Source: Gari tellinella (Eukaryota > Mollusca > Bivalvia > Cardiida > Psammobiidae). From it: a DNA stretch of 64,000 nt. The notes under the pieces were generated by a model. The model saw only the letters and a program-made list of their open reading frames with translations. It was not told where the DNA came from and searched no databases. This document shows, one piece after another, positions 34,373-62,510 of this stretch. Position 1 is the first letter of the stretch. Every line of letters begins with the position of its first letter. The translations under genes were made by a program, and so were the position numbers. Location: contig OV277859.1 of assembly GCA_922989275.2 (NCBI GenBank), positions 85,742,198 to 85,806,197 on the forward strand. Reading direction: 5' to 3'.

Positions 34373-34530
34373 CACGTTTTAACTTTGAAATATGGGTATG
34401 TTAGAACTAACGCGAGTTCGAAGTATCGAGTTTCGACTGTACATGGAACGACGATAGCTTATGTATAGGGCAATGCAAGTAACATTTAAAGTCGCTCGTT
34501 CTAGCGGGAAAGCAGTGTCTGATTAATTTT

Positions 34531-34678: not shown

Positions 34679-34958
34679 AGTCATAACAATTGTAGAACAA
34701 CGAGAGTTAGTAACGGCTTATGTACACATAATCATGAATTGGAAAAACATTGCCTAATTTGGTCAAAAGGGCATAGGAATCATAGAAAACTGAACGCACG
34801 TGAATAGTAGTTATATAATATAATTTGATTTGATCTTTAATAGTACAAATCATATATCTTAAAATAAAGCTATATAATATATCTAAACTATATTTATTCA
34901 ATATTATGTATATTTGGAATTAGTTATTTTTATCACATAAACTATTGCATATGTAAGA

Positions 34959-37507: not shown

Positions 37508-37756
37508 CAGTGAAGAAAACGTTATTCTTTCCCAATAAACGCGTTTACGCTAAAACTACTATTTCCATTGCAAACAGTCTGGAGCCAGATCAGACGCCGG
37601 GTAAACCGGCGTCTGATCAGGCTCCAAACTGTTTGTCACGCAGTTTAAAACGAGTCTTCAAACTTGTAAAAAAAGTTGTCATTTACCCATTTTAATGCAA
37701 GTTGCATTTGCGTTTCGTTTGTGTTTAAACAGTAAAGAACAATGTTTTCTCCACTG
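37508..37756. mobile_element. TA-K1b MITE, intact
   Basis: CAGTGAAGAAAACGTTATTC to AATGTTTTCTCCACTG, flanked by TA (37506-37507, 37757-37758). K1 hairpin at 37568-37636 with GGAGCC arms and GCCGGG centre, as in 7965-8208. Confidence 0.88.
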
Positions 37757-43807: not shown

Positions 43808-46800
43808 CAAACAGAGACAGATAGACAGACAGAGAGAGAGTTCCACACAATACTGTGTTTTAAAAATGTGCTTACGTCAACAGCTTCTTACCTGCAATGA
43901 TCCCATATCCAAGAAAGACGACGAAGAAGTTATTTGTTAGGAATGAGATGACGAGGCCCGTGGACGCCAAGCAGCCCCCGACGTATGAGCAGACCCGAGG
44001 ACCAAACTTGTTTGTCAGCAAACTGCCTATAGGACCTGTAAAACATAAATTAACCCATTTGTGACCACCGTCCTATGACATAGACAAACAGTGTAGACTG
44101 ATCAGACGCCGCATAATGCGGCGTCTGATCAGAGTTTACACTGTTTGCTGATGGGAATTTCAATATAAAACGAAAATGCAAAACCAGGCATCCCTGAGAT
44201 AAAAAATGGACTAATCCAATAATTATATAATCATGCAGAATCCACTGGGCGCAAACGGGTTAAACGTCTGTACATGTACAGTCAAACTCGTGACCATCGA
44301 CCCTTTCAAAAGAGATTGGTTTTGACTTGTTGCAGCTTAATGCAGAACATACAAATAGCTCATTGTTCATTTCTACATTACTTGTTCTCTGATTTAACAA
44401 ACACGTGTCTTTTAAAAGTCGCATTGCTTTTTTTCTAATTGTACACTTTTGGATTTAATACTGGCTAAACTAGAATACAGTAAATTCTGAAAGCTTTCTG
44501 CACTACATTTCCCCTCCTATAAGCAGCCGTATATCTTTAAAGATCAATTTGCTTCTTTATTAATATAAGTCTTACTAAATGTGTATATAAATGTATTTTT
44601 TTTAATGTTGCCTATATAACATGTCTTAAGCGGACATTCTTGAAAGAGGATGATACTTTTGAAGATATATGTGCTTTGAAGGTACATCTCCTGTGTGAAA
44701 AAAGTTATACAGCGCTCCCTCTCTACAACGGCCCTACCAACAACGATTCCCTCCTTACAACGACCCTTGTCTCAGATCCCTAAACAGAACAATTACGTCC
44801 AACCTATTCACGACTGCAATGTCGTCTGCTTAAAATTGTCTTCCGCTGTTTTTCTAAAAATTACATATTTGACCATTTCAGAGTAAAAGAACTTAATGAC
44901 GAGTGACAAACAGCTTTAATCCAGATCAGACGCCGTGTTACGCGGCGTCTGATCTGGATTCAAGCTGTTTGCAAATGTAAACCAATTCCCCTCCCTATAA
45001 CGACTCCCTCCGAAAAACGCACATATTTTTTGTCTCCCATGGCATTGGATGTCGTTGTAGAGAGGGGGCACTGTATATATAAATCTTGTACGGGGTGACA
45101 GCTTAATGCCAGCCAAACGTCAATTAGATAGCTCTTTTACAAGCTTTCTTTTTTTTTACTTTTTGTCATGCATTAAACTGCCTACTGTATTATACGTTGC
45201 TAAGTAACTTAATTTTAAGTGTTCTCGAAACTCTAGTTAACCCTTTACCTGATAGCCTGTTTTTATTATAGAAGATAGGTGACTACTTAAAGCAGGTTGA
45301 AAGTAAAGCATAATGCGCCTTAAGGCTCATTCTGCTTTACTCTCAGTCTGCTTTAAGCTTCCATGGCATGTGCTAGAAGATTGAAAATATTCCATATACA
45401 TGTACTATATATACATGACTGATTGAATTGGAACTATTTTCGTCAGCGGAGGAATAAATCATATCCGCTAAAAGTCGCTTCTATGGGGGAAAAGGTTAAA
45501 CTGTAAAACGATAGAAATGTGCAAACAGTTTGATTCTAGATCATACGCTAAAATAACTCTTATCACTTCATTCAGTTAGAAACATGTACAAACTGATATT
45601 TTGATGTTTTTGCTGACGACGATTTTAGCAGGTTGTTTGATAGGAGGAGGAAGGCATTGGTAAAACAAAAAGCTTAGCTTGCAACCTGGAGACGCTAACG
45701 AGCTAGAAAATCTAGTTGTAAAAAGTAAATAATGAATAATGCGATATAATATAACAGCTGATGTTGACGCCCTACGCAAAAATAGGAGTTACAACATACA
45801 GACGAATTGCAATAACACCCACCTGTATAAAGCGACCATTCTACATAATATCAGTACAGTAAAAGCCCCTGAAGAGACCCTATACATTACATGTATATAT
45901 ATCCATCATATGTCTTTGATTTGCTGTATGCTTTCTCCAAGAAAGGTTTCTAAATAAAGTTTGACTGTATACCGACAAACAATATCACGTAATATTCAGC
46001 AAAAAAAGAATGGATATAAAAGTTATTTCTCTTATACTTGTATATTATTTTTCTTACAGTCAAGCTTGTATATTTACATTCACCCTGTAAAGTCTTTATG
46101 TAATCCTATTAAAACTATGCAGTACATCTGCCGATGAACCTACAACTCGAAACTGGATCTAGCCAGTTCGGATTTCCCCCGTGCTATTCGTGGACTTCTT
46201 CAAATAGACTACATCGGGCACTTAACACTAAGCTCCCATTGGTCGACGATCATATGACACTAGCGGAGTGATACAGACCCATAGGTCGTTGCCATCGCGT
46301 TGCTATGTGTGTAAATGGGTCAAGAAAACAACCGCGACCTGTATTTCTAGAATGTGCTTTTGCAATAGATATTCAAGTTACACTGTTATTTGTTTGCCTT
46401 GTAAGTCTTTTCCATTTACAGAGAGACAGTTTACTGGAAAAAATCCTGAATTTTTAATACAGTTACAGTACATGTAGTTGGGACTACTTTCTCACCATAT
46501 TTAGAAACTGGAATGGCTATTACATCGACATTACATCTATCAAACCTCTTTGACCGGTATATGATAAATTCTTATACAGAAAAACAAATCTGGCCAATAA
46601 ACACATTAAATTGACAAGACAGAAAATATAAATATAAATATAAGGAATAAACAACATCTCTTTGCCGCTCATGACGTTATGACTACATTAGCTTCGGGGG
46701 TTAAATTAAACGTAAACGCCCTTGGGCGTTTACGAAATTTACCCTCTGCGAAGCTAATGTAGCCATACCGTCATGAACGTCAAAAATATGTTGTTTATTC

Positions 46801-49800
46801 CTATAATGGCCCCTTATTGTAATCTTGTGATGATGTTTGGTTACTGTTGTTGTAAAAAAGTTTTATCTCTTGCGCGTATTTTTAGAGTACATGTAATAAA
46901 ACACTTGCATAGTTTGGACGAAAACAATAGGGATGAACATGCAATAATTACGACCACTACAAAGAAGGCTAAATGATTGTATAAAAGACAGGTGGCAGCT
47001 TAAAGCAAGGTGGAAGTGAAAAAGAAAGCTCCTGTAGGAGCTATCTGTTTCACTTTCACATTTATTTAAGCAGCCACATGCCTTTATCACCAAAAATAAC
47101 ACAATTTATTGATTGTAACACAGAAGTTTTATGGTACAGTACAATTATTTAAACGTCCTTGGAAAACGAACTTACTTCCCATGAACCATAGTGTGACAGG
47201 CAGATTACAAAGCCAGCTAACAGCCACCGTACCCATCTCTTTATACTCCTCTATGAACACCGTGTAGTATATACCACCCGTATATACATACCCACCAAGC
47301 ATCACCTGAAATACCAATACCAATTATAATACACTGAAACATCTCTATACTCCTCTATGAACACTGTGTAGTATATACCACCCGTATATATATACCCGCC
47401 AAGCATCACCTGAAATACCAAATTACCAATCATAATACACATAAACATCTCTATACTCCTCTATGAACACAGTGTAGTATATACCACCCGTATATACAAT
47501 GTACATACCCGCCAAGCATCACCTGAAATACCAAATTACCAATTATAATACACTGAAACATCTCTATACTCCTCTATGAACACTGTGTAGTATATACCAC
47601 CCGTATATACATACCCGCCAAGCATCACCTGAAATACCATATTACCCATTATAATACATGTACACTGAAACATCTCTATACTCCTCTATGAACACCGTGT
47701 AGTATATACCACCCGTATATACATACCCGCCAAGCATTACCTGAAATACCAAATTACCAATTATAATACACATAAACATCTCTATACTCCTCTATGAACA
47801 GAGTGTAGTATATATATACCACCCGTATATACAATGTACATACCCGCCAAGCATCACCTTAAATACCAAATTACCAATTATAATACACTGAAACATCTCT
47901 ATACTCCTCTATGAACACTGTGTAGTATATACCACCCGTATATACATACCCGCCAAGCATCACCTGAAATACCAAATTACCAATTATAATACACTGAAAC
48001 ATCTCTATACTCCTCTATGAACACTGTGTAGTATATACCACCCGTATATACATACCCGCCACGCATAACCTGAAATACCAAATTACCAATTATAATACAC
48101 TGAAACATCTCTATACTCTTCTATGAACACTGTGTAGTATATACCACCCGTATATACATACCCGCCAAGCATTACCTGAAATACCAAATTACCAATTATA
48201 ATACACTGAAACATCTTTATACTCATCTATGAACAACGTGTAGTGTATACCACCCGTATATATATACCCGCCAAGCATCACCTGAAATACCAAATTACCA
48301 ATTATAATACACTGAAACATCTTTATACTAATCTATGAACAACGTGTAGTGTATACCACCCGTATATATATACCCGCCAAGCATCACCTGAAATACCAAA
48401 TTACCAATTATAATACACTGAAACATCTTTATACTCATCTATGAACAACGTGTAGTGTATACCACCCGTATATATATACCCGCCAAGCATCACCTGAAAT
48501 ACCAAATTACCAATTATAATACATGTACATTGACAACGCTAAAACAGGGCTAATCCTCTTTGAATAAAGTCTTAAATATTATAAATTATTATTATATGTA
48601 TTGATATAATTGATTTCATAAAATGCAGGTGACAGCTGAATGAAAGGTGAACGAAAAACAGAAAGCTCTATGAGCTTTCTGTTTTATATTTGCAAATTGC
48701 TACATCCAGTTAGTAGTGTTATATTGTTGTTTGTTTTGTATGAAATGCCTTTTGTTTTACGTACTTGTATACATGTTGAGGGCCTCATGGTTGATTGGCC
48801 TTTACCAAATGAGCTCTCTCGTTAAATAAAGTCTTTATTATTATTATTATTATTAATATTATATTCACATTGCTTTAAGCAGTCACCTGCCTCAAAAACT
48901 TGCTAATAAACATACTTTAGTGGTCGTAATAGAGAGGTTTTACTGTTTATGGATACATTTGTACAGTAAACCCAACTTATAAAGGCTTGTTTTCAGTGTG
49001 TCGTGCAAATACATGCATTTCGTTGAAATAACCAAGTGCTATAGGAACACAGCATACATGTAGCTCGCAAACTTCAACCTTTGTAATGCCAAAGCTGACG
49101 TCGGTGAAGGCGTGTTATTCTTCGAACAAGCCAACAACAACAAAAACACTGCTTCATATTTACTATGTTGGGTAGGTGACCGCTTATAGCAAGATGGAAG
49201 TAAATCAGAAAGCTCCTGCAGCAGTTTTCTTATTCACATTGACCCTGCTTTAAACTATCACCTGTCTTTAACACAATAAATAAGTCGTCGTTTGAGTTGT
49301 GGAATGCGGAAATTAACACTACATGTAATTGTACTAAGACTGAAGCTGAGATCTCATAAAACCCCTTATAGCTTGTATAATGTACGTGTAGGACAAAACA
49401 AGTCTTATTGCATTGCACCATTGTACACACCAAGCACAGTTGTCATCTCAGGCTCTGTATCTGTGTTTGGTATACACTGCCAAATGCCGTATCTGATACA
49501 GCTACATAAAATGCGTTAACATCATGTGGGTTTCAAACAATGTATATATTAAGGCCAGTCTTTGACGCGGCAACTGGCCTTGATCTATACACTGTGCGAA
49601 ATGCAATAAGTCAGGGTTTATCATAGCACGGCTCATATATCATTGTACTCTTACAGCAGAGAAGAAGTCATTATTTCCCGTTTAAACGAAACTAAAACAG
49701 AAACGTAATTTTCCCAGTGTCTGATCTGGCTCCAACCGGTTTGTAATGAAAATAATTATTTTAGAACAAATGTGTATATTGGGATGGAATAGAACGAACC

Positions 49801-52800
49801 TTTTAACGTACTTTTAGCTGGAAACTGTTCAAAAGAAGATACTTTGGCGATCTTTAAGACAGATGGCTTCTTAACCCATTACCCCATAAATACGCCTTTT
49901 TACGCCTTTGATATATTCCTTCACTGAAGAAAATAGTTCTAATTTATACGGTCTTGAATATGTATTATAAGAAATACATGTATGTTCTACATTCTAGGAG
50001 ATGATAGCTTAAAGCAGGCTGAAAGTAAAGCAGGATGCGCCTTAAGGCGCATTCTGCTTTACTTTTAGCCTGCTTTAAATGGTCAACTGGCTTCAACACT
50101 AGAAACTGGCTATGGCGTTATGGGTTAATGCAAACTTTACACACTATTAGGCAGAATACAGTTCATTGTTGAACAAAAGGTAGTTGAGAAAGCTTTTCTA
50201 GACAAGCATAAAGCAGCCATTTGTTTCAAAAGACAATACTGCTTGTTAATTGAAAGTTCACCAAAGTTTAATTGTAAGTTCATCTAAGTTTAATTGTTTA
50301 ATGCTTGTTAATTGAAAGTTCAATGCTTGTGTTCGTCAAAGTTTAATTAGTTATATACACCATATTTTATGGCCAAATGAAGGAAGATGTGCCTTTTGGC
50401 ACTTAAGGCAGATGCTTGTAGCAAGATGAAAGTAACAGGGTATTTCTGTGTTGCTGTCATCATAGATTAATCTTGGCTCAGTTTTAACACCATACATGAG
50501 TACATTCAGTACAGTATAACCTGGCTTATCCGACACCTAGTAAATCCGGAAACCTGCTTTATCTGACAATGCTTTGTCGAATTGCATAAGTCGAACTTCG
50601 CTATCTCGAACACGTTTAAGTCGAGCTAACTCGTATTTCTTTTAATGAATTCCTATATCTTAAACTCGCTTAAGTGGAGCATATCCGTATTTCAAAGTTA
50701 AAACGTGGCAAAGCCACGTTTTAACTTTAATATACGGGTATGTTTTACTTAAGCTAGTATGAAATATCAAAGTTCGGCTGTATATCTAAAACCTGCTTTA
50801 ACCGACACACTGCTTTAAACGGCATTATCAGTTGGTACCGAGCAGTGTCGGATAATGCAGGTTATACTGTATTCGTTTGAATTGTCGTAAAACGGGGTTT
50901 TACTGTATCCGGCAGCCATCTATTTATACATTTGCACAGCCGCTGTGACTCTTCCAGAAGATGTACAGTATGTTTTTTGTAACACATTTGTGACGAGGTC
51001 ATGTCAATGTACCTTTTTTACTTTTTACGATCTTTCATGCGTTCATTGAGTGATCAGGCCATGGCTACAGATATTCTAACAGACATCCCAATATTGGTTG
51101 GTATCATTAAATCGAGTAAGTTTATTTCAATATAAACATCTTTTAAAAGTCGTATACATACATATACACAAAGAGGAGAACAAAAGCAATGCTTGCTTAT
51201 TAACCCATTACTATATAAACACGCCTTTCTACGCCTTTTATTCTTTCCTCCGTTGAAGAAAATAGGTTCTTTTTTAACAGTCATGAATAGTTACCATAAG
51301 AAATATTTTCTATATCCTATCAGATAGTAGCTTAAAGCATTCTGCTTCACTTTCAACCTGCTTTAAGGGGTTAACTATTTTCAATACTAGAAACAGGCTA
51401 TGGGGTAATGGGTTGAATTTTCTCCTAGTAAGTTGATCGACTTCTAATTCAATCCACTTTCCGTTTCGTTTCGGTACTGCTTGTCTCATGTAATTTGTAT
51501 GTATATATCCTGCTTAATATGTAAATGCTGATGTACATGTATAGTTACTTGCTGATGTTTCCCGTTATACGGGACTCTGCGGTTGTTATCAATCAAATTG
51601 GGAAACTTGGATTTAAAGTCACACTAACTCTAAAATTTTAGGTTAATTGATTAATGTAATATCGCAATGTGTGTAACGCGACGTTTGACCAGGGTCCAAA
51701 CTAGGGGTGTAACAATATGGTGAAAACCGAATTGCAATATAGTAAAACCTGTCTATAACGGCCACTTAAACGAGAACTAATTGTTTTTTTAAATGACAGG
51801 TGGCAGCTTAAAGCAAGGTGACAGTAAAACAGAAAGCTCCTACAGGAGCTTTCTGTTTTACTGTCACCATGCTTTAAGCAGTCACCTGTCAAAAACAACT
51901 TGGAAATTATCACACTTTAGTGGCCGTTATAGAGAGGTTTTACTGTATATTGCACTACAGAGGAAACGTATTGCAATATATTGTGGCAACTTTTAAGAAC
52001 AAAAATTGGACAAGAATCAGCCTTGCAAACTTATTTAGAGCATTGAAAGGATAAAAGAAGTGCTTTAAATACAGAGGGTCCAAATTAGTATAGACATTTT
52101 CTGGGAATGTTATAACAGTCTTTGTATAACGTTCAAAATTAACAGGGCACCCCTCTCGTATGTGCTCAAATAATATATAGAATATTGCAATACGGAAACA
52201 CCGTATTGCAATACACGTATTGCTAAGAGGAGTATTGCAATATAATAATATATTGCCGTAGAGTTACACCCATGGTCCAAACTGTTTGCAAAGTGCCATT
52301 GTACTCGGTGTAATGCGGTGAAGGGGTTAGATATATAGTGTCATGTGAGTATTGTGCTCACATTATTTGAACCCTTGATTGAATAATACATAAGTGTAAC
52401 CTAATAACCCGTTCACTGCCATGACGTCATCAATGTTGAACAATGTTCGTCTGCTTTTATTGCTCAAATTCAAAGTTTAGGTATTTTCACGCAAGACATA
52501 TTGAAATAAATTTCAAACAGTTTGGATCCTGATCAGACGCCGCGTCAGGTTCCAAACTGTTTACAAATAGCTAGTGTACTCGGGACAAGTCATTGAAGGT
52601 GTTGACCCGTGCTCTTATATGTACAGTAAAATCTCTCTATTACGATCAATAAATTGTTTTTAATTAATTTGTGTTTAAGGCAGGTGACTGCTTAACGCAA
52701 GGTGAAAGTAAAACATAAAGCTCTTGTAGGATCTTTCTGTTTTACTTTCACATTGCTTTAACCCTTTGAACCCTAGTCCCGCATTTAGGCGTCCTTTTCA

Positions 52801-55513
52801 AACTGTATACGTGTCAAAAGTGCACTTGTCCTATGCAAACAGTGAATACCCAGATCAGAGGGCTCCTTATGGAGCCCTCTGATCTGGATCTTCACTGTTT
52901 GTCATAATGCAAAACATTGACAAAAACAACCCTTAAAAGTCAGAAATGGACTATACTTAAATGGAAACTGGGATTGTCCATTTAAAGTTTCAGGGAGGAT
53001 CTGTATATTTTATAATCCATTAGCCTTCTTATAAGTGGTTGTAATAAAGAGGTATTACGGTGCATGTTATCCAATATACTGTTATTATTATTATTGTTAT
53101 AATATCGTCTGCTTGAAATACTTGTCGTCTGCTTTTATTTAATTCAAAGTTAACCATACTAACATTATGAAGCACGATTAGCATATGTGTTTTCCTTCGT
53201 CCCATATCTATCTATTATTTGAATTATCCTAAACCCTTTCACTCTTAACCCATTACCACATAGCCTGTTTCTAGTAGTTAAGATATGTGACCTATTAAAG
53301 CAGGTTGAAAGTAAAGCAGAATGCGCCCTAGGGCGCATTCTGCTTTACTTTCAGCCTGCTTTAAGTTACTATCTACTAGGATATCGAAAATATTTTATAT
53401 GGTACATGTTCATGACAGTATAAATGGAACTGTTTTCTTTGGCGGATGAATAAAATGAATGCGCTAAAAGTCGCTTCTATAAGGGAAAGGGTTAATGACG
53501 CTGAAAAGAGCGTTTGCAAACATTTTGGATCCAGATCAGACGCCGCGTAACGCGGCGTCTGATCAGGATCCAAACAGTTTAACTCTCGTATCGCTGTATT
53601 TTAAGTCATACTACAATGAATCTTTCTTTGAAACGAGCTTGCAAACAACAAAATTGAAGCAGACGAAAACGAAACGGTGAAGGGGTAAATACCTCACGAT
53701 TAATTTGGCAGCCAGAGTTAACCTAGTTTCACGGTTACCAAGTTAACACATTCAACCCAAGCGACGAGTATAGTCGTCATTAACAAACAGTGCAACTGTG
53801 AAGAGTATACTTGTTCTATGCAAATTGTGCAGACCTTGATCAGAGGGCTCCTGCAGGAGCCCTCTGATCAGGGTATGCACTGTTTGTCATTTTGCAATTT
53901 ATTGTTAAAATCAACCCTAAATAGTAGAAATGAACAAGACTTAATTGGATATTGGAATTATCCATTAAAATTTTCAGGGTTGAATAAGTTAAACCACCGT
54001 CTGCATCAAACGTGTCGAATTTATGCCTTTTAACCCTTTGTCTACCGATTGCAAATTGGCTGCATTCTACAAACAGTAAAGATCCAGATCAGTCGTCGCG
54101 TAACGCGGCACCTGATCTCGATCCCAACTCTTTGACATCCCTGTTAAGGTTTCATTAATTAAATATTGTGTAAATTTAACTAAACATTTTTTGCAGACAA
54201 CAATTTCAAAGCAGACGATAATACGGCATGATAAGGGTTAAATAGGGGAAATGTTAAATAAGATGGTAGGTTGTGTGGATCCTGATCTGACACCAAGTTA
54301 CTCGTCGTCTGATCTGGTTACCAACGGTTTAAATTAACTAGCCTGTGTATTCGCGTACACAGTACGGGATTTTTACTATCACGCACTTGGCATGCATTTG
54401 GTGCTTGAACATAAACCCCGCAAGAACATGTTGTACTAGTTCAATTCTACACCCCTCTTAAGCTTTTTACCTACTTAATGAAGGGCAGAAGTAATACGGA
54501 AAGCTCCTTAATGATCTTCTGTATAGCTTTCGCACTGCAGTAAGCTACCAGGAGGCTGAAAACCCCCAAACGACTTGGCTTATTTGTATGGATATGTCGC
54601 TGAAAAGAGGGTTTACTGTATGCTGCAGTATAGGTAGATATTAAGATACATGTATATATAGATTTAATTAACGAACATGCATTAACCCTTTGTCTGTCGA
54701 TCGGCGCTTGACAGGTATTTGAAAATCACCTGTAGCAGGCCAGACACCGCGTAACATGGAGTCTAATCTGGATCAAAACTGTTTGTTGTCCATCTTTAAG
54801 TTTCTTTATTTATAAGGAATATACAAGTTATATTTGAAGAGGCTTGCAGACAACAATCGAATCAGACGACATTACAATACGAGGGGCTGGGGTTGGGGTT
54901 GAAATATCGTTAGGGGCGTTTAGTCTTCCAAGTACATGTAAAAGCGTTTTTACAACATAACTCCCTCCCTACAACGACCCTCTAAACAACGACTCCCTCA
55001 TTACAACGACCATTGCCGCTCTCCTCAAATAAGACAATTATGTCTAACGATTGCACTGCTGCAATATAGTCTGCTGTTTTTTTCTCAAAATATTTGACAG
55101 AATCAATTTACATATGATTACGAGTGCCAATCAATCTGGATCCTGATCAGACGCCGCGCGACGCGGCGTCTGATCAGAATCCAAACTGTTTGAAAAGTGT
55201 CATGTAATCGACTATGGTTGTAAAGGAGTTTAAAACAATTACTAATCAGAAAAACTGTATGAATAAATGAATAGTTTACCTGGGCTAAAAATGATGCCAT
55301 TCCAACGACAAAGCTCCATGGACCATCCAGAATCTCATCTTGGTCCTCATCTCTACGACCCGAATACACACTACCAGACTTTACAACATCACTCAACACC
55401 ACACCGTTCTTTTCTATAATCACATCACTCTTTTCCAGCAGACACGAGTTAACCATGCACTCATCCAGACTCTTGTCCGGGTGCTTGTTGTACGCTCGCT
55501 TGTTTTCCGCCAT
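39000..55513 (-). CDS. SLC16-type monocarboxylate transporter family protein, complete (482 aa)
   Basis: Five exons (55513-55280, 47305-47176, 44035-43892, 43370-42645, 39214-39000) with GT/AG borders and matching phases give 482 residues, a usual SLC16 length. The family signature near TM1 is 'DGPWSFVVGMASFLAQ' (compare DGGWGW), and the TM4-5 signature is 'RYFKKYRAMITILTTLGPMV' (residues 186-205; compare YFxKRRxLAxGxAxAG). About 12 hydrophobic segments are visible; the roughly 60-residue N-tail is polar, and the C-tail is short and charged. Members move monocarboxylates or other small organic molecules across the plasma membrane by proton-coupled or facilitated transport; the substrate here cannot be told. 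The last residues are 'EKTSVP'. Confidence 0.92.
39350..39425. repeat. Short K3 hairpin in transporter intron 4
   Basis: AAAGCAGAATGCGCATTCTGCTTT with longer outer arms (AGGTTGAAATTAAAG / CTTTCAACCTGCTTTAA), about 140 bp upstream of exon 5; no termini. Confidence 0.65.
40517..41718. mobile_element. TTAA-K1 MITE split by a TA element
   Basis: Left end TTAACCCCTTATATGCCTTG; K1 palindrome at 41546-41608 and right flank GGCAGTGAAAGGCC follow the 982-bp insertion. Located in transporter intron 4. Confidence 0.7.
40555..41536. mobile_element. 982-bp TA element with CAGTATAACCTCTGTTATCC ends
   Basis: Inverted ends CAGTATAACCTCTGTTATCC / CGACAGAGGTTATACTG sit between TA dinucleotides (40553-40554, 41537-41538). 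Internal CGGATAACAGAGG-like motifs repeat near the right end. No transposase recognised in frames of up to about 100 residues. Confidence 0.82.
41832..41995. mobile_element. TTAA-K1 MITE, left part
   Basis: CTAACCCTTTCAATCTCAAT, then K1 palindrome at 41870-41937 (GACGCCGCGATACGCGGCGTC). Right end not found. Confidence 0.65.
42392..42635. mobile_element. TTAA-K3 MITE next to the exon 4 splice donor
   Basis: TTAACCCATTACCCCGTAAC to TATGGGGTAATGGGTTAA with TTAA on both sides. Perfect inner K3 arms (AGAATGCGCCTCCAGGCGCATTCT). In the transcript it starts at intron position +10. Confidence 0.9.
42645..43370 (-). CDS. Transporter exon 4 (main membrane exon)
   Basis: Residues 171-411. Carries the second family signature and TM4-TM11, with a basic central loop ('LFPIKSLVKVEKTSFFDVLR'). 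Acceptor TTGCAG, donor GTAAAT. The intron's TTAA-K3 MITE starts ten bases after the exon, and reading on would add 16 MITE-encoded residues before a stop. Confidence 0.93.
43440..43545. repeat. K1 half-hairpin and TA-type end in transporter intron 3
   Basis: GCAAACAAATTGGAATCAGA is a decayed K1 arm; it joins CAGTCGAAACTCGATACTTC, an end also seen in other partial copies (50750-50785, 34400-34445). Confidence 0.45.
43655..43845. repeat. (GA)n microsatellite in transporter intron 3
   Basis: Long GAGAGA and GACAGA runs; the Ser/Leu-rich reverse frames across it are artefacts. Confidence 0.95.
43892..44035 (-). CDS. Transporter exon 3
   Basis: Residues 123-169, split codons at both ends. 'LTNKFGPRVCSYVGGCLAST' is the TM2-TM3 loop and TM3; 'FFVVFLGYGIIA' begins TM4. 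Acceptor TTACAG, donor GTAAGA. Confidence 0.92.
44050..44263. mobile_element. TTAA MITE with K1/K2 hybrid hairpin
   Basis: TTAACCCATTTGTGACC to CTGGGCGCAAACGGGTTAA. Hairpin at 44087-44152: outer CAAACAGTGTAGACTGATC, inner GACGCCGCATAATGCGGCGTC. Same subfamily as 35786-36019. Begins 15 bp upstream of the exon 3 acceptor boundary. Confidence 0.87.
44710..45073. mobile_element. TA-K1a MITE, intact
   Basis: CAGCGCTCCCTCTCTACAAC to TCGTTGTAGAGAGGGGGCAC/TG, flanked by TA. K1 variant hairpin at 44907-44975 with CTTTAATCCAGATCAGACGCC / GATCTGGATTCAAG arms. Direct AACGACTCCCTC-like repeats near both ends. Confidence 0.88.
45237..45499. mobile_element. TTAA-K3 MITE
   Basis: TTAACCCTTTACCTGATAGC to TATGGGGGAAAAGGTTAA; K3 hairpin at 45289-45355 with two mismatches. 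Confidence 0.83.
45500..46638. other. Transporter intron 1, nothing supported
   Basis: A K1 trace at 45523-45560 only. No exon-like frame was found between the flanking repeats. Confidence 0.4.
46639..46806. repeat. 168-bp imperfect inverted repeat
   Basis: TATAAGGAATAAACAACAT at the left mirrors ATGTTGTTTATTCCTATA at the right; inner arms share GACTACATTAGCTTCG / CGAAGCTAATGTAG and meet at GTAAACGCCCTTGGGCGTTTAC. Confidence 0.85.
46940..47105. mobile_element. TA-K4 MITE, ends lost
   Basis: TTACGACCACTAC then K4 hairpin at 46990-47075 (AAAGCTCCTGTAGGAGCT). Lies just after exon 2 in intron 2. Confidence 0.75.
47176..47305 (-). CDS. Transporter exon 2
   Basis: Residues 79-121 plus one base: 'VMLGGYVYTGGIYYTVFIEE' completes TM1, then the TM2 start 'VAVSWLCNLPVTLWFMG'. 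Acceptor TTTCAG, donor GTAAGT. The first half of this exon is the source of the tandem array just upstream in intron 1. Confidence 0.91.
47332..48520. repeat. Tandem array made from the front half of transporter exon 2
   Basis: Eleven units of mostly 104-107 bp (some 113-117) follow the real exon on its upstream side. Each unit, read on the minus strand, has the acceptor TATTTCAG, then about 70 bases matching exon 2 ('VMLGGY', 'YTGGIYYTVFIEEY'), then about 35 bases of intron. No unit has the second half of the exon or its donor. Units near 48230-48480 form a subgroup (AACGTGTAGTGTATACC), a sign of recent local amplification. Confidence 0.93.
48535..48954. mobile_element. TA-K4 MITE interrupted by a retroelement tail
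   Basis: K4 left arm at about 48630-48685, right arm at 48866-48890, right end GTCGTAATAGAGAGGTTTTA/CTG. The left end also contains a second short AATAAAGTCTTAAATATTAT tail at 48562-48600. Confidence 0.8.
48684..48868 (+). mobile_element. Retroelement 3' tail, AATAAAGTCTTTA(TTA)n (copy 2), with target duplication
   Basis: GCAAATTGCTACATCCAG through GAGGGCCTCATGGTTGATTG to (ATT)n. A 7-bp direct repeat TTATATT flanks it. Inserted in the right arm of a K4 hairpin. Confidence 0.82.
49165..49290. mobile_element. TA-K4 MITE remnant
   Basis: K4 hairpin AGCTCCTGCAGCAG with flanking GGTGACCGC and TATCACCTGTC; ends lost. Confidence 0.6.
49871..50128. mobile_element. TTAA-K3 MITE
   Basis: TTAACCCATTACCCCATAAA to TATGGCGTTATGGGTTAA; K3 palindrome at 50005-50085 nearly perfect. 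Reverse orientation to the 42392 copy. Confidence 0.87.
50512..50869. mobile_element. TA element with CAGTATAACCTGGCTTATCC ends and a second palindromic element inside
   Basis: Inverted ends CAGTATAACCTGGCTTATCC / GGATAATGCAGGTTATACTG between TA dinucleotides. The middle (about 50579-50790) has its own palindrome AAAGTTAAAACGTGGC-AAA-GCCACGTTTTAACTTT. Confidence 0.82.
51200..51415. mobile_element. TTAA-K3 MITE with half hairpin
   Basis: TTAACCCATTACTATATAAA to TATGGGGTAATGGGTTGA; one K3 arm is missing (TTAAAGCATTCTGCTTCAC). Confidence 0.8.
51702..52273. mobile_element. 572-bp hAT-like element with 9-bp flanking repeat
   Basis: Ends TAGGGGTGTAACAATAT and GTTACACCCAT, flanked by GGTCCAAAC (51693-51701 and 52274-52282; 8 bp is usual for hAT). 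Subterminal ATTGCAATA motifs repeat in both halves (GTATTGCAATATATTG, GGAGTATTGCAATATA). Confidence 0.82.
51740..51945. mobile_element. TA-K4 MITE nested in the hAT-like element
   Basis: AGTAAAACCTGTCTATAACG to GTTATAGAGAGGTTTTACTG; K4 palindrome at 51805-51895 with a perfect centre AAGCTCCTACAGGAGCTT. Confidence 0.9.
52403..52601. mobile_element. TTAA-K1 MITE with truncated hairpin
   Basis: TAACCCGTTCACTGCCATGA; the hairpin at 52507-52565 lost its centre (GACGCCGCGTCAGGTTCC). Flank carries AATGTTCGTCTGC. Confidence 0.7.
52624..53060. mobile_element. TA-K4 MITE with a TTAA-K2 MITE inserted in its hairpin arm
   Basis: CAGTAAAATCTCTCTATTAC follows TA; the K4 hairpin at 52680-52757 is broken at its own TTAA; the right part TTAGCCTTCTTATAAGTGG continues at about 53028. 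Confidence 0.82.
52758..52998. mobile_element. TTAA-K2 MITE nested at TTAA in a K4 arm, right end deleted
   Basis: TTAACCCTTTGAACCCTAGT; K2 palindrome at 52837-52905; stops at TTTCAGGGAGG without AAAGAGTTAA. Confidence 0.82.
53245..53495. mobile_element. TTAA-K3 MITE
   Basis: TTAACCCATTACCACATAGC to TATAAGGGAAAGGGTTAA; perfect K3 centre (AATGCGCCCTAGGGCGCATT). Confidence 0.86.
53492..53690. mobile_element. TTAA-K1 MITE sharing a TTAA with the K3 element
   Basis: TTAATGACGCTGAAAAGAGC then K1 palindrome at 53512-53580 and GAAGCAGACGAAAACG near the right end GGTGAAGGGG. Confidence 0.78.
53743..53992. mobile_element. TTAA-K2 MITE
   Basis: TTAACACATTCAACCCAAGC to CAGGGTTGAATAAGTTAA; K2 hairpin at 53823-53890 around CTCCTGCAGGAG. 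Confidence 0.83.
54029..54241. mobile_element. TTAA-K1 MITE
   Basis: TTAACCCTTTGTCTACCGA to CATGATAAGGGTTAA, TTAA both sides. Hairpin (54065-54135) with several mismatches. Confidence 0.8.
54682..54900. mobile_element. TTAA-K1 MITE, decayed
   Basis: TTAACCCTTTGTCTGTCGA; left K1 arm mostly lost (CAGACACCGCGTAACATGG), right arm present. GCAGACAACAATCGAATCAG flanks the right side. Confidence 0.65.
54955..55231. mobile_element. Chimeric MITE: TA-K1a left half, TTAA-K1-like right half
   Basis: Left side ACTCCCTCCCTACAACGACC and ACGACTCCCTCATTACAACG match TA-K1a; the hairpin at 55126-55193 is nearly perfect; the right side GTCATGTAATCGACTATGG ... TTGTAAAGGAGTTTAA matches TTAA-K1 flanks instead of CCCTCCC. 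Lies about 50 bp from the exon 1 donor. Confidence 0.7.
55280..55513 (-). CDS. Transporter exon 1
   Basis: Residues 1-78. ATG in a good context (GATATGG) and no longer in-frame alternative. Polar, acidic N-tail ('SGRRDEDQDEILDGPW') leading into TM1. Donor CAG|GTAAAC splits TM1 between exons 1 and 2. Confidence 0.9.
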
Positions 55514-55671
55514 ATCACCTATACTCTTTCACTTTGTGTTTATGTTTGATTTTCCTTAAGGCTACCGATCCATATTGCATCTATTCCACTCCGTCAGTAA
55601 TAATGTGGATGGTGTTGCTACACTTGTACATATTCCATTCCTAGTCCTGAATTGTTAAAAAAAAAAGAGTT

Positions 55672-55919
55672 TTAACCCTTTCACTGCCAAATCTTTCGTG
55701 AGATTTTTACCCCTTCGCCGTTTCATTGTCGTCTGCTTCAATTTTGTTGTTTGCAAGATCGTTTCAAAGTAAGATTCAAAGTAGTATGACTTAAAATATA
55801 TCGGTACGAGTGTCAAACAGTTTGGATCCTGATCAGATGTCACGTTACGCGGCGTCTGATCAGGACCCAAATTGTTTGCAAACGCGCTTTAAGGCGTCAT
55901 TGAGAGTGAAAGGGTTTAA
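55672..55919. mobile_element. TTAA-K1 MITE upstream of the transporter gene
   Basis: TTAACCCTTTCACTGCCAA to TTGAGAGTGAAAGGGTTTAA; K1 hairpin at 55813-55880; GTCGTCTGCTTCAATTTTGT in the left flank. Only about 160 bp upstream of the transporter ATG. Confidence 0.86.
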
Positions 55920-56039
55920 AGACCCGCTATGACGAACACTAAGTCTTGCAAATGGTCAATGATAGTGATAAACCGAGAGACAATTTAAAGCAATGTGATC
56001 TTAAGGCAGATAACTCCCTTGTGGTGATATATTTAGAGA

Positions 56040-56420
56040 CATCTGAAAGCAGGCGGACAGTAAAGCAGACAGTCCATATACATGTATAGGAGCTTTCTGC
56101 TGTACTTTCAATCTGCTTTAACCCTTTCCCTTATAGAAGCGACTTTTAGCATATGCATTTTATTCATCCGCTGAAGAAAATAGTTCCAATATATACCGCA
56201 ATGAATATGTGTTATATTTAACACTTTCCTTATTCTAGTAGGTAATAGCTTAAATCAGGCTGAAAGTAAAGCAGAATGCGCCATATGGCGCATTCTGCTT
56301 TACTTTCAACCTGCTTTAAGTAGTCACCTATTTTCAAAACTAGAACAGTCTATCAGGTAATGGGTTAAGCCACCTGTCACTAAATGTTACTAACATCGAA
56401 CACATAATGTCCGTTATAGT
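56040..56420. mobile_element. K4 MITE remnant hosting a TTAA-K3 MITE
   Basis: K4 hairpin TATAGGAGCTTTCTGCTGTA up to CTGCTTTAA at 56121, continuing after the insertion with AAGCCACCTGTCACTAAATG. Confidence 0.7.
56118..56368. mobile_element. TTAA-K3 MITE nested at TTAA in a K4 arm
   Basis: TTAACCCTTTCCCTTATAGA to CAGGTAATGGGTTAA with the host TTAA duplicated; perfect K3 centre (ATGCGCCATATGGCGCAT). Confidence 0.88.
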
Positions 56421-56596
56421 TTGACTTTATCGCTCTCATATAGTACCGACACAGATATAGGGCAACCATCAGTATCCCAAAACCTAGTAACTCTCTACAG
56501 GCGAGCTTTGCGTTTTATATGACTCGTTGTACAAGTCAAAGGTTACAGGAGTCGACGTTCTCCATAGGTACAGTAACACCTAAACAGTACAAACTA

Positions 56597-56839
56597 CCCT
56601 TTCATGATCAAATTATTAGAGAGATTTTTACCCCTTCACCGTTTCATTATCGCCTGCTTCAATTTTGATGTCTGCAATGTCGTTTTAAAGTTTAAAAAAG
56701 ACAGTACGACTGAAGAAATTTCAACCCAAGTGTCAAACAGTTCGGATCCTGATCAGACGCCGCTTTACGCGGCGTCTGATCAGGATCCAAACTGTTTGCA
56801 AACGCGCTTTTGATGCGTCATTGAGAGTGAAATGGTTAA
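56597..56839. mobile_element. TTAA-K1 MITE
   Basis: CCCTTTCATGATCAAATTAT to TTGAGAGTGAAATGGTTAA; perfect K1 hairpin at 56732-56800 except one base (GTTCGGATCC). Confidence 0.83.
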
Positions 56840-56948
56840 TGAGGCCGATGATCTGTTTTCTTAAGCGTTACTAAATGCAGGATAAAACAATGCAGAAAAC
56901 TCTTGTTAGAGATTTCAACATTAATTATATCCTGTATTGTTACGTGTC

Positions 56949-57210
56949 GTAACCCGTTTATTTCATGACCTATTTCTAGCTTTTAAGACAGATGAACGCT
57001 TAAAGCGGTTTAAGGGTGAAGCAGAGTGTGCTTTATGATACATTCTGCTTTACTTTCAGTCTGCTTTAGACCATCTGCGAAAATGTAGACATATTTTCTT
57101 AAGGAACATGTTCATGACTACATGTATAAAAATTGGAACTACATGTACTTTCTTCAGTGGAGGAATAAATTAAATGTGCTAAAAGGCGTTTCAATAGGGT
57201 AAAGGGTTAA
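56949..57210. mobile_element. TTAA-K3 MITE
   Basis: GTAACCCGTTTATTTCATGA to ATAGGGTAAAGGGTTAA; K3 hairpin at 57000-57068 with several mismatches. Confidence 0.78.
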
Positions 57211-57471
57211 GAGGTATCCACGATTATTCACCGAATGATAGATTAATACACGATTGGCGATATTCCTAAATCATATAAAACGAATAATGCATGTTTCATA
57301 TAAAGCGTTTTCTGTTATCCTTCATTGAGCAAACATAATCGAGCTATTGATCATACTTACCTAGTTATACCTTTTCATTGCTGTAATCTAGTTTCTGTTT
57401 ATACACTCGACTGAATTATCTTTAAAAATATAGTTTAGTGACATTTTGTTTTTTAGTGTGTCTTAACCCTA

Positions 57472-57704
57472 TTAACCCTACAGCCCTCTGTAGAGATTAC
57501 TGATAACATATACAAACAGTGTAGACCCTGATCAGAGGGCTCCTATAGGAGCCCTCTGATCAGGGTCTGCACTGTTTGATATGTTCATTGCTTTTTGTTT
57601 ACCTATCAAATATGCAACAGTAGACTGGTTCAAGGTGCATGTACTAGAAGAGTCCAAAAGGATAATAAATACCCACAAGATATAGTTAGGGTTGAAAGGG
57701 TTAA
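57472..57704. mobile_element. TTAA-K2 MITE
   Basis: TTAACCCTACAGCCCTCTG to TAGGGTTGAAAGGGTTAA. K2 palindrome at 57512-57577 with one mismatch. Same subfamily as 12253-12481. Confidence 0.88.
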
Positions 57705-58042
57705 CAACACAGCCATGCGGATGCTAACTGTTTAGATCGTGTCAGACGCCGCGTTATGCGTCGTCTAATTATTATTTAATTTTATTTTTTTAAAAACAAA
57801 TATATGTATTTGCCAAGTCGATCTCAGCACTCTAAGTAGTGGTTAACCATAGTTTCAATGCAAGTCCAATATTCTCCAGGGGTGCAAAGAAAACTGGCAA
57901 AGTCCAAGAACATTTATCACGTGTATACAGTATTCTTATTAGTAATTGTCTTTATACTATATTGAAACAAGAAACCCTATCGTGTAGGCCTACATTGGGT
58001 TCTGATCAAACTCCACACAGTTCAATAATCATACATGTATTA

Positions 58043-58388
58043 AATTGCTCCCTCCCATCAACGATCCTCCCAACAACGACTCCCTCAATACAACGAACCT
58101 TGCCGCAGTTCCCCAAACAAGACAATAATGTCTAACGCTTTCACTGCTGCAATATTGCCTACTTAGAATTGTCACCTGCTGTTTTCCTTGACATATTTGA
58201 CATTTTGATAGAAGAAAACTAATTAAGGGTGGCAACCAGCTTGAATCCAGATCAGATGCCGCGTTACGCGGTGTCTGATCTGGATTCAAGCTGTTTGCAA
58301 ATGTAAGCAAAGTCTTAATTTTCCCTCCCTATTATGACTCCCATCGAACAACACACACATTATGTGTCGCTGTAGAGAGGGAGCATTG
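58043..58388. mobile_element. TA-K1a MITE
   Basis: ATTGCTCCCTCCCATCAACG to GTCGCTGTAGAGAGGGAGCA; hairpin at 58230-58300 with CTTGAATCCAGATCAG arms (one mismatch in the centre). Confidence 0.83.
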
Positions 58389-58881
58389 TATCATGTAACA
58401 GCATTTCAACCCTTAATCATGCATGACAGATCTAGTATGCAAATAATTCTTCAAGTTCAATATTCATAGTCGACATTTCTGCCATTTCTTTTGAGGTTTA
58501 TTCGCAGACTGTCAAACAGTTTAGAGGTGTCGAGTTACTCGGCGTCTCATCTGAATCCAACTTGTTTGCAACCGATATCACAAATCCTACTACATGTATT
58601 GCAATCTTACGGTTAAACCACCAAGAAACACTCAAAAACGGTCATGAGTTGTATTATAATCTCTAACCCTCAGTGTTAATGTCCGTTTGTAATGCACCTT
58701 CCAATGAAAATGTCACACAGTCACGTGATATACACGCTGTCAGGTATGTCAACTATTCTTCAATGAAAGCTCACTTTTATCTATGTCAACCGCTCATTGA
58801 TAATCAATACTACATGTACAACAGATTCTGGATCTCGCCCAGTCTCTGAACGGACTCAGGTGATGCATATTCACTATAACA

Positions 58882-59085
58882 CAGTAAAACCGCTCTATAA
58901 CGATCACTAAACCTAAGGCTAATTGGTTGTAGGAAAGACAGGTGGCAGCTTAAAGCAATGTGAAAGTAAAACAGAAAGCTCATACAGGAGCTTTCTGTTT
59001 TACTTTCACCTTGCTTTAAGCAGTCACCTGTCTTAAAGTAAAATAGTCAACTTAATTTAGTGGTCGTTTTAGATAAGTTTTACTG
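58882..59085. mobile_element. TA-K4 MITE, intact
   Basis: CAGTAAAACCGCTCTATAAC to GTTTTAGATAAGTTTTACTG. K4 palindrome at 58945-59030 with AAGCTCATACAGGAGCTT centre. Confidence 0.88.
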
Positions 59086-59134
59086 TAACAGTATCGACCC
59101 TTACAGAGCTGAAAGCAACTTGAACATGTATTTG

Positions 59135-59326
59135 TGAGAAAAAAAAAGATTGTATCCTGAACAGACGCCGAGTAACTCGGCGTCTGATCAGGATCCAAGC
59201 TTTTAGACGTTCGTAACGAAGTTTTTTTTCAGTCAAAATGCCTAAACTATGGCTTTATAAATTTGAAATAAAAGCAGACGACATAATTATTTAAGCAGAC
59301 GGTAATACAGCAGTAAAAGTATTAAT
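59135..59326. mobile_element. TTAA-K1 MITE, left end lost
   Basis: K1 hairpin at 59148-59205 (GCCGAGTAACTCGGC centre); right flank has AAGCAGACGACATAATTATT and AAGCAGACGGTAATAC. Confidence 0.7.
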
Positions 59327-59658
59327 GAGGTGATGATAATAGTGAAGTGTTGAAGTCCAATTAACACCACTTCTCAAACGAAGTACTTAGGTGTTCAAAC
59401 TAACAAGCAGAACGAGAACAGAACAGAACAGAACAGAATAGTTTATTTGGTTTTAGAATAGCAGCTCATCACCATACGTACATAGATATAATGAACATGG
59501 CATGCATTGCAAGTGATGAGAGTAACGTAGAAAGCAGAAAGTTGCTGTAGGATGAAATTGATGCATAAATCCCTTACAAAGAATGTCTGCTTTATTTTCA
59601 ACCTGTGTTAAGTTGTCGCCGGTCTTGGGCATGATACATGAAGATTTTCTTTGAGCTA

Positions 59659-60050
59659 CAGTGTTCCCTCCCTACAACGACCCTCCCAACAACAACTCCC
59701 TCCCTACAACGACCCTCCCAACAACAACTCCCTCCTTACAACGACCCCCTAAACAGGACAATAGTGCCCAGCGCATTTAATGTTGCAATATCGTCTGCTT
59801 AAAATTGTCGTCTGCTCTTTTCTCTCAAAGTTATAAATAAGTGGGCAAAGTGAAAGAAAAATATAATGACGAGTGCAAACAGCTTGAATCCAGATCAGAC
59901 GCCGCGTTTACGCGGCGTCTGATCTGGATTCAAGTTGTTTGCAAATGTAAGCCAAGCTTTTAAAAAAATTCCCTCCCTATAACGACTTCCTCCGAACAAC
60001 GCACATAGTATGTATCTCCCATTGGGTGTCGTTGCAGAGAGGGGACACTG
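59659..60050. mobile_element. TA-K1a MITE, intact
   Basis: CAGTGTTCCCTCCCTACAAC to TCGTTGCAGAGAGGGGACACTG, flanked by TA. An ACTCCCTCCCTACAACGACC block is duplicated near the left end. Hairpin at 59876-59945. ATATCGTCTGC and TTGTCGTCTGC sit about 80-110 bp before it. Confidence 0.9.
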
Positions 60051-60098
60051 TACATGCATAGTAACAGCGATACATTATTGTAGAGTCGGTGAATACTA

Positions 60099-60344
60099 CA
60101 GTGGATAATCTGTTATTCTTTCCCGTTTAAACGCAAACGTACGCAAACGCAAAGCACTAAAACGTAGAAAAGAACAACTTTTGGACAATTCTGATAATTC
60201 TTGTTTATCTTGGTGGCAAACAGTTTGGAGCCTGATCAGACGCCGGGTTACCCGGCGTCTGATCTGGCTCCAAACTGTTTGTATTGAAAATAATAGTTTT
60301 AGCGTAAACGCGTTTATTGGGAAAGAATAACAGATTCTCCACTG
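60099..60344. mobile_element. TA-K1b MITE, intact
   Basis: CAGTGGATAATCTGTTATTC to AATAACAGATTCTCCACTG, flanked by TA. Hairpin at 60217-60282 with GGAGCC arms and GCCGGGTTACCCGGC centre. Confidence 0.9.
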
Positions 60345-60489
60345 TAGATACCAACTTGAACATTTCGCATCACGCTCTCTCGTCTCTACATTTGTTACAG
60401 ACAAAACGTGTGTTAACATAAATACTAATTAGTAATTAGTTCTTCTAAAGATACAGGTGACTGCTTATAGGAGTTTGCTGTCACCCGTA

Positions 60490-60744
60490 TTAACCATTTC
60501 ATGACCAAATTTATCGCCAGTTTTTTTACGTTTTTTGCCCCTTCAACGCCATATTGTCGTCTACTTCAATATTGTTGTCTGCACTATCGTTTCAAGGTTA
60601 GATTTAAGACGATTAACTGACGTCATTTCAAAACAAGTGGCAAACAGTTTTGATCCCGATCAGACGTCGCGTTACGCAGCGTCTGATCACGATCAAAACT
60701 GTTTGCAAATGCGCTTTATGGCGCTTCGTTGAGGGTGAAAGGGT
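60490..60744. mobile_element. TTAA-K1 MITE
   Basis: TTAACCATTTCATGACCAAA to TTGAGGGTGAAAGGGTTAG. Hairpin at 60640-60710 uses a GATCCCGATCAG/GATCACGATC variant. TATTGTCGTCTACTTC in the left flank. Confidence 0.84.
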
Positions 60745-60869
60745 TAGCATGAATGCTTATTAGTTCGTCTAAAGATACAGATGACTGCTTATAGGAGCTT
60801 GCTGTGTGCTTCTGTTTGATCTTGATTTAAGCTGTCACCAGTATTAAATAGTGATGGCATATGATATCC

Positions 60870-61076: not shown

Positions 61077-61432
61077 CAGTGTTCCCTCCCTATAACGACC
61101 CTCCTGACAACGATTCCCTCCTTATAACAAACATTTGCCGCTTTTCCCCCAAACGAGACAAGCATGTCCAACCTATTCACGACTGCAAATTTATCTGCTT
61201 AACATTGTCATCTGCTGTTTTTCTCAAAGTTACATAATGAACATTTTGACAGAAAAAACTTAATAACGAGTGACGAACAGCTTGAATCCAGATCAGACGC
61301 CGCGTTACGCGGCGTCTGAACTGGATTCAAGCTGTTTGAAAATGTAAACCAATGTCCCTCCCTATACCGACTACCTCTGAACGCACATATTTCTTGTCTC
61401 ACATTGGATGTCGTTGTAGGGAGGGAGCGCTG
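61077..61432. mobile_element. TA-K1a MITE, intact
   Basis: CAGTGTTCCCTCCCTATAAC to TCGTTGTAGGGAGGGAGCGCTG, flanked by TA. Hairpin at 61280-61340 with one mismatch. Confidence 0.9.
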
Positions 61433-62122: not shown

Positions 62123-62510
62123 CAGTACTCCCTCCCTACAACGACCCCTTCGATAACGATTCCCTCCCAATAACAATATTTGCCGCTTTTCACCAGACAA
62201 TACAAGGCAATTACCCTATGTATAACGCTTTCACGGTTGCAATATCGTGTTCTTAAAGTTGTCGTCGGTTTTTTTTCTCTCTCAAAGTTACGCATTGTAC
62301 ATTTTTATAAAGACCAGTGACAAACCGTTTGAACCCAGATCAGACGCCGCGTGACGCGGCGTCTGATCTGGGTTCAAACTGTTTGCAAATGTAAGCCAAG
62401 TCAATTTCAGCATTTTAAGAATATTACCTATTCCACCCTATAATAATTCCCTCCGAACAACACACACAATTTTATCTCCCATTGGGCGTTGTTGTAGAGA
62501 TGCAGCACTG
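62123..62510. mobile_element. TA-K1a MITE, intact
   Basis: CAGTACTCCCTCCCTACAAC to TTGTTGTAGAGATGCAGCACTG, flanked by TA (62121-62122, 62511-62512). Hairpin at 62325-62385 with the variant TTGAACCCAGATCAG in both arms. Confidence 0.9.

Follow-up and report, generated by a model that had tools for sequence, protein, structure and literature searches.

The closest precedent for the elements described here is the CMITE/CMITE-IN system of Acropora corals, small miniature inverted-repeat transposable elements (MITEs) that, like those below, are flanked by TTAA and have CC[C/T]T ends, and in which the 75-bp internal region varies less from family to family than the terminal inverted repeats (TIRs) do; CMITE-IN is a new mobile element, born by insertion of a CMITE at a TTAA (PMC2872659). 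We describe here K1, a palindrome of about 65 bp that recurs in a 64,000-nucleotide stretch of the genome of the bivalve Gari tellinella (GenBank assembly GCA_922989275.2, contig OV277859.1, forward-strand positions 85,742,198 to 85,806,197; this whole stretch is called the window below, and coordinates count from its first nucleotide). In our reading, to which we give a probability of about 0.7, a set of piggyBac-like (TTAA) MITEs has K1 as its conserved palindromic core, and one family of TA-flanked elements that carries K1 (family B) arose by nesting and co-amplification.

The left TIR of CMITE family VI, CCCTTTCACTGCCA (PMC2872659), is the same as that of the window's element at 55672. The coral internal consensus had no match to the K1 hairpin profile or to two profiles of its flanks in families A and B (below), and the text of the CMITE paper, as far as it was accessible, contains neither “palindrom-” nor “hairpin” and names no TA-flanked family with the core (PMC2872659). 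The left end of Trichoplusia ni piggyBac has a TTAACCC end followed by a palindromic repeat bound by the cysteine-rich domain (CRD) dimer of the transposase, and family B resembles it through the motif GTCTGCTTAAAATTGTCG; that repeat is 19 bp long, however, and the portion of the paper cited describes no counterpart of the 65-bp central palindrome (PMC7351741). Internal imperfect palindromes are transposase binding sites in TTAA elements at the piggyBat left end (PMC11707139) and in PGBD3/MER85 (PMC3459987), but these are about 14–16 bp long and, in the excerpts of those papers used here, their cores are not common to TA elements. MER6 is like family B in that the conserved core of one class of element lies within mariner-type MITE ends and is amplified together with them, but this core is the V domain of a short interspersed element (SINE), not the palindrome of a TTAA transposon (PMC6887750). 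A mollusc element, Lucina pectinata repeat 1, is MITE-like and 210 bp long, has a 77-bp palindrome at its centre and repeats of 30 bp at its ends, and is likened to the present ones by description, not by sequence; it lies in haemoglobin genes, similar fragments are reported from other molluscs, and its authors, in the sections cited, found no target duplication (PMC4732748). Searches of an open-licence library turned up no account of a single palindromic core with TTAA ends in some elements and TA ends in others, and the sole match of a literature search with K1 strings was a paper on zebrafish inflammasomes.

The K1 palindrome and its TTAA-flanked carriers

The window has a G+C content of 36.5%. 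K1 is 65 bp long (66 in one class), its intact copies run from CAAACAG to CTGTTTG around a 3–4 base loop, and about 60 K1 loci are present in the 64 kb, in TTAA-flanked elements and in two kinds of TA-flanked elements (Table 1). The arm pattern CAAACAGNNNNGANNCNGATCAGANGNC has 87 matches with up to 3 mismatches versus 0.02 expected (100 shuffles), and a profile search gave 74 merged loci, 61 of which entered the flank listing, the other 13 being weak or partial. That these palindromes are of separate origin and merely alike is extremely improbable: other palindromic cores do exist here (K2 and the family with GGGCTCCAGATAAG ends, below), but the number of arm-pattern matches stands against convergence, as do the hairpin consensuses of families A to E, which agree in their 7-bp ends and in the GATCAGA block, are of nearly equal length and have 20–28 of 31 pairs identical.

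The initial annotation had listed ten elements of three end types that share the hairpin, and the palindrome of about 65 bp can be read in all ten, the three end types are real, and each of the seven listed TA elements has TA on both sides. The three TTAA elements fared less uniformly, since 12824–13037 is clean on both sides and the other two each have one imperfect end; the element at 55672 ends GGGTTTAA, with an additional T ahead of the TTAA, and that at 60490 ends GGGTTAG. Its estimate of about 50 K1 and K2 hairpins in 64 kb is fair or low (71 palindromes of every kind, with 24-nt arms and at least 19 paired positions, were found), and we agree that simple decay of one transposon does not explain one hairpin between ends of differing target-site type.

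K1 is found in more TTAA families than noted earlier, for example TTAACCCTTTCAACCC (12253–12481), TTAACTCTTTGCATG (21333–21527), TTAACCCATTTGTG (44050–44263) and TTAACCCTTTGAACCC (11390–11640). By their ends the TTAA families are A (CCCTTTCACTGC and variants), A2 (CTCTTTGCATGCT), D1 (CCCTTTGAACCC), D2 (CCCTTTCAACCC) and E (CCCATTTGTG). A TTAA target duplication is present in types A, A2, D and E, with an empty site for 12824–13037, and the ends of most families are CCCTTT-like and so have the CC[C/T]T motif, A2 beginning with CTCT and E with CCCA. The end sequence TTAACCCTTTCANTGC occurs 44 times in the window within 3 mismatches, versus 2.96 expected. A piggyBac-like end pair, defined by one fixed rule, surrounds 16 of the 61 K1 loci versus 28 of 600 control positions, which may themselves include K2 TTAA elements. 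When TTAA pairs with matching ends were collected blind to palindromes, 14 of the 16 rows (two of which overlap, in a count without a random-interval control) enclosed a palindrome, K1 in 7 and K2 in 7, and a central palindrome is thus a usual part of TTAA MITEs here.

As in the CMITE families, an internal region is common to TTAA elements with different TIRs, since A, D and E have the same hairpin. Outside it, degenerate GTCGTCTGC repeats are present in A, the T. ni piggyBac motif (below) has no match in D or E, and only 1 of 26 D and E flanks scored at all against the A/B flank profiles, at 0 bits, in a comparison that (for D, E and C alike) spans the 45 bases adjoining the hairpin. In the two A1 elements (55672 and 60490) a decayed inner end at 107–108 bp is followed farther out, at 142 and 151 bp, by a new outer TTAA end, which indicates that ends were replaced in A1 as well. 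Kolobok-type MITEs, whose target is also TTAA, were considered and rejected as an assignment; they need RR termini and an AGGRR motif, according to the part of PMC6004289 cited here, and the ends in the window are CC or CT.

The TA families and nested insertions

TA target duplications are present in TA families B, C and G, which we take to belong to the Tc1/mariner-pogo superfamily from their TA target and CAGT ends. The initial annotation had the hairpin as the sequence that TTAA elements share with TA elements of the CCCTCCC type (family B); this is correct as far as it goes, but B shares more than the hairpin, namely about 100 bp of left arm with TTAA type A, on one side. A left-flank profile made from 17 TTAA-type or unassigned loci, hairpin excluded, matches all seven B left flanks, with scores of 38.4, 37.8, 30.2, 28.0, 24.4, 12.4 and 7.8 bits; the best reversed control scores 12.6 bits, and five of the seven are clear. 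From the outside inward the arm common to A and B reads approximately TAACGCTTTCACTGCTGCAATATCGTCTGCTTAAAATTGTCGTCTGC ... CATTTTGAC ... AAAACTTAAT.ACGAGTG, followed by the hairpin and then CAAATG. Within B, GTCTGCTTAAAATTGTCG is at best 16/18 identical to a segment of the left end of T. ni piggyBac, and this segment covers most of the palindromic repeat bound by the CRD dimer. With up to 3 mismatches allowed, GTCTGCGTAAAATTGACG, from that same left end (oligonucleotides in the part of PMC7351741 cited), matches the window 4 times versus 0.03 expected; two of the matches are in the B locus at 26529, one each in those at 44907 and 59876, and none in any other element.

Remains of a TTAA end are also present inside B. 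In a terminus scan that allowed up to 5 mismatches, three of the seven B copies, those at 58233, 62321 and 55128, have a decayed TTAACCCTTTCACTG-like terminus ahead of the hairpin, at 101, 99 and 84 bp respectively, and ten TTAA-type or unassigned loci have such a terminus 78–119 bp ahead of theirs. On the right, a TTAA end 39–52 bp after the hairpin is present in 10 of 12 loci that bear the label A or A2 versus 0 of 7 in B.

A K1 TTAA element inside a TA element exists in the window at present (12824–13037 within 12657–13075). With 12828–13037 removed and a single TTAA kept, the remaining 209 bp can be aligned from one TA to the other with 51738–51947 (181/211 columns, 86%, E 1e-66) and, from base 2, with 58881–59087 (170/209); the joined flanks of 12824–13037 have 12 spanning matches, and the outer CAGTAAAACCTCTCTATAACAACCACTAAA ends are matched 8 times in the window (up to 3 mismatches, 0 expected). 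If the outer unit moved, the product would be a TA-flanked K1 element. Joined flanks match another repeat across the site in 4 of the 18 TTAA elements tested, of which those at 12824 and 56118 are clear. At 56059–56368 the target TTAA of a K2 element of type F is supplied by a K2 palindrome itself. At 52697–52901 the TTAA in an arm of a K2 palindrome is the starting point of a D1 element (TTAACCCTTTGAACCC, at 52758) that, by eye, has no right end; this is an example of one-ended loss after nesting.

Our reading of B is then that a K1 TTAA element would have inserted at a TTAA inside a Tc1/pogo-type MITE, that it would have lost its right end, and that the outer TA transposase would have amplified the composite as one unit. 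That the composite was amplified, which enzymes acted and in what order things happened is inferred; the observed base is the shared left arm, the piggyBac-type motif, the decayed TTAA terminus in three of seven copies, the absence of the right end, and the present nested intermediate, whose outer TA family differs from B. An independent mobile hairpin that inserts into MITEs is a very unlikely alternative source of such elements: the limits of K1, CAAACAG...CTGTTTG, are identical across the families compared, but by eye none of the 61 loci has a target duplication around the hairpin (filled and empty pairs were not searched systematically), and the hairpin occupies the same internal place in the aligned seven B and four C copies.

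Family C, TA elements with CAGTGGAGAAAA-type ends, has in common with A and B the hairpin and about 8 bp, GAGTG directly before it in 2/4 copies and CAATG directly after it in 3/4; one copy, at 3051, is without one end. Hairpin-limited exchange is a candidate here. In such a scheme the palindrome, as a cruciform or single-strand hairpin, would be a hot spot of template switching or gap repair at which unrelated MITEs swap the module. The scanty likeness of C beyond the hairpin fits it, as does the fact that D and E share the hairpin with A yet do not match the A/B flank profiles, and so does K2, whose palindromes are found in a TTAA family (TTAACCCATTACCCCATA) and in a TA family with CAGTAAAACC ends, the arm consensuses of the two (9 TTAA-type loci or relatives, 5 TA-type loci, one row, 47006, being out of register by one base) agreeing at 38 of 48 bases. 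By eye, the TA copies of K2 contain no recognisable TTAA terminus of their own, and at least two transfers of a core between TTAA and TA elements appear to have taken place. As a general account we nevertheless consider such exchange unlikely, since B has a piggyBac-type arm in addition to the hairpin, D and E have TTAA ends as A does, so that common descent with fast-evolving flanks suffices for them, and a nested insertion is observed (12657–13075). The module exchange at cruciforms proposed in the initial annotation is therefore not needed for B, which has the piggyBac-type left arm in a window that holds a nested TTAA-in-TA element, and it is still a candidate for C, whose origin is consistent both with nesting followed by heavy loss and with hairpin-limited copying.

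A comparison of trees for conflict had been suggested; the hairpin tree alone was made, and at 62 columns it is a weak test. With 39 hairpins (four broken ones, at 39633, 54721, 21385 and 38423, being left out here and in the private-change count below), it sets A, B and C apart from D and E (support 99/98) and recovers C as a group (100/98), but the hypothesis that every TA-ended hairpin goes back to one origin is not rejected (p-AU 0.276).

That last result is among several that weigh against the origin proposed for K1 and B. The piggyBac motif is limited to three of the seven B loci, those at 62321 and 55128 do not score above the reversed control with the left-flank profile, and an inner TTAA terminus is not recognisable at the expected place in 4/7 copies. 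The terminus scan gives chance matches, for example a right end in the C element at 8038 and a left end at 36–38 bp in two B copies. A core-less B element was not found in the window; a B-like end (CAGTGCTCCATCTCTAAAACAGC) is present at 26124–26464, separated from the B core at 26529 by more than 300 bp without similarity to B, a gap that is probably an insertion in that copy. The nested cases at 53245 and 57463 are weak, with fewer than 20 bases on one side, and in profile comparisons, one of them over the 45 bases beside the hairpin, the flanks of C have no similarity to those of A or B. The enzyme classes are assigned from ends and target sites because no transposase was recognised among the window's four open reading frames (ORFs) of at least 150 amino acids; the Pfam scan covered two of these, one an MFS transporter and one without a Pfam match. 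Finally, the notion that hairpin arms are copies of a family's own subterminal motif was tried and rejected (mean 5.39 for a family's own motif and 5.31 for those of others, permutation 4032/10000, 18 elements), the motif being found in the arms as a 9-mer in D2 only.

Paired and one-sided change in the hairpin

Among the five family consensuses (that of E set by hand from 3 copies), the ten pairwise comparisons each gave 2–11 changes paired in both arms and 0–1 one-arm change; the CAAACAG and GATCAGA blocks are alike in all five, and the remaining positions vary in pairs. Comparison of the 40 copies of four families with their own consensus gave 184 one-sided, 38 two-sided paired and 13 two-sided unpaired differences, of which one row off register by one base (38423) accounts for 20 one-sided and 4 two-sided unpaired; the 38 indicate that paired change exists among subfamilies too. 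Private changes, present in a single copy of 39, are 44 one-sided, 1 two-sided unpaired and 0 two-sided paired, and a less strict count of pair states that occur once gave 64 unpaired and 9 paired. Pair states found in at least 3 copies are 47 Watson-Crick, 6 G-T and 4 other; G-T is split out only in this last count and is scored as unpaired in the consensus, within-family and private-change counts.

Fixed copies decay mostly one arm at a time, and multiplying lineages remain paired. Arm-to-arm correction in resting copies is disfavoured as the chief cause of the symmetry, as 0 of 45 private changes are two-sided and paired. The paired form (hairpin or cruciform) may have a role in mobilisation, or one arm may be copied from the other by fold-back during amplification; either is favoured because a plain dimer-binding site would need no pairing at variable positions. 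A stronger version would make the base-paired palindrome, with its fixed CAAACAG and GATCAGA, a portable cis-acting mobilisation element that increases the number of copies of whichever MITE gains it, under a TTAA or a TA transposase, is recruited repeatedly by unrelated systems and is kept paired by compensating changes; to this we give little credence.

Other repeats, matches outside the window, and implications

Table 1. Coordinates of K1- and K2-bearing elements in the window
Position	Strand	Type	Features
12657–13075	+	TA-flanked nested composite	CAGTAAAACCTCTCTATAACAACCACTAAA ends; K2 palindrome 12714–12807; K1 TTAA element inside
12824–13037	+	K1 element, TTAA on both sides	TIR CCCTTAGCCYGCCA; hairpin 12933–12997
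55672–55919	+	TTAA, A1	outer end TTAACCCTTTCACTGCC; decayed inner end TTTACCCC 108 bp before hairpin; hairpin 55814–55878
60490–60747	+	TTAA-type, A1	right TTAA decayed to TTAG; hairpin 60641–60705
12253–12481	+	TTAA, D2 (TTAACCCTTTCAACCC)	hairpin with GAGGGCTCC arms, ~12290–12355
57463–57704	+	TTAA, D2	hairpin 57513–57578
11390–11640	+	TTAA, D1 (TTAACCCTTTGAACCC)	hairpin 11468–11533
44050–44263	+	TTAA, E (TTAACCCATTTGTG)	hairpin 44085–44147
21333–21527	-	TTAA, A2 (TTAACTCTTTGCATGCT)	K1 hairpin partly destroyed, 21385–21449
56118–56368	+	TTAA, F, with K2 palindrome	inserted at TTAA within arm of another K2 palindrome; joined flanks, one spanning match, E 8e-8
59659–60050	+	TA, B (CAGTGTTCCCTCCC)	piggyBac-like motif GTCTGCTTAAAATTGTCG 59793–59810; hairpin 59876–59941
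61077–61432	+	TA, B	hairpin ~61274–61338
62123–62510	+	TA, B	inner ATAACGCTTTCACGG 99 bp before hairpin 62321–62385
44710–45073	+	TA, B	motif 44824–44841 (3 mismatches); hairpin 44907–44971
58043–58388	+	TA, B	left end decayed to AATTGCTCCC; best kept inner piggyBac-type end CTAACGCTTTCACTGC 58132–58147; hairpin 58233–58297
60099–60344	+	TA, C	CAGTGGA...TTATTCTTTCCC ends; hairpin 60217–60281
37508–37756	-	TA, C	hairpin 37571–37635
7965–8208	-	TA, C	hairpin 8038–8102

A third palindromic family (CCTATGGTGTTACTACTCATTAGAATCGTCTC) is present at 2565–2661, 5630–5726, 8344–8402, 9078–9178, 10751–10835 and 16948–17042, and several of its copies sit within GGGCTCCAGATAAG end repeats; the copy at 10764 has CCACTAAA on both sides, an 8-bp duplication that is presumably of the kind made by hAT elements. 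Two related long palindromes, 34530–34679 and 31899–32048 (arms of 74 and 73 nt, 95% and 75% complementary), belong to another repeat family. Tandem arrays lie at 264–816, 32648–34285, 47238–48523 and 22109–23537, with units of 34, 53, 106 and 160 bp, and the unit of a 167-bp tandem repeat at 14355–14748 includes a K2 palindrome arm. A 285-amino-acid ORF on the minus strand at 42595–43452 matches Pfam MFS_1 (E 2e-20), and tRNA genes above the Rfam threshold lie at 18658–18729 and 26877–26949.

The K1 and K2 arm patterns had 0 matches in viral contigs. In bacterial and archaeal contigs the K1 arm pattern had 5, four of them without a palindrome, and the only K1 is in a contig (L002) of a metagenome-assembled genome, Spirochaeta sp. 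LUC14_002_19_P3, whose end has TTAACCC plus 35 bases and then CAAACAGTGCAGACCCAGATCAGACGCCACA, where the palindrome is cut off; the remainder of the contig looks bacterial by eye. A Spirochaeta-like species has been described from the gills of the clam Phacoides (Lucina) pectinatus (PMC6461927), and L002:1–140 (about 140 bp, TTAACCC and K1) is probably clam-like host DNA, an assembly chimera in the public record, the link to a clam being through the name; neither the record prefix MUIB nor the tag LUC14 occurs in the part of the text of PMC6461927 available to us.

On the reading that we prefer, the window makes legible in sequence a route by which the core of one transposon superfamily would pass under the control of another, by nesting, loss of one end and co-amplification. 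It is also a natural experiment on why MITEs retain central palindromes: changes shared by families are paired on both arms and those private to single copies are one-sided, which suggests that pairing matters, or is re-made, in the lineages that multiply.

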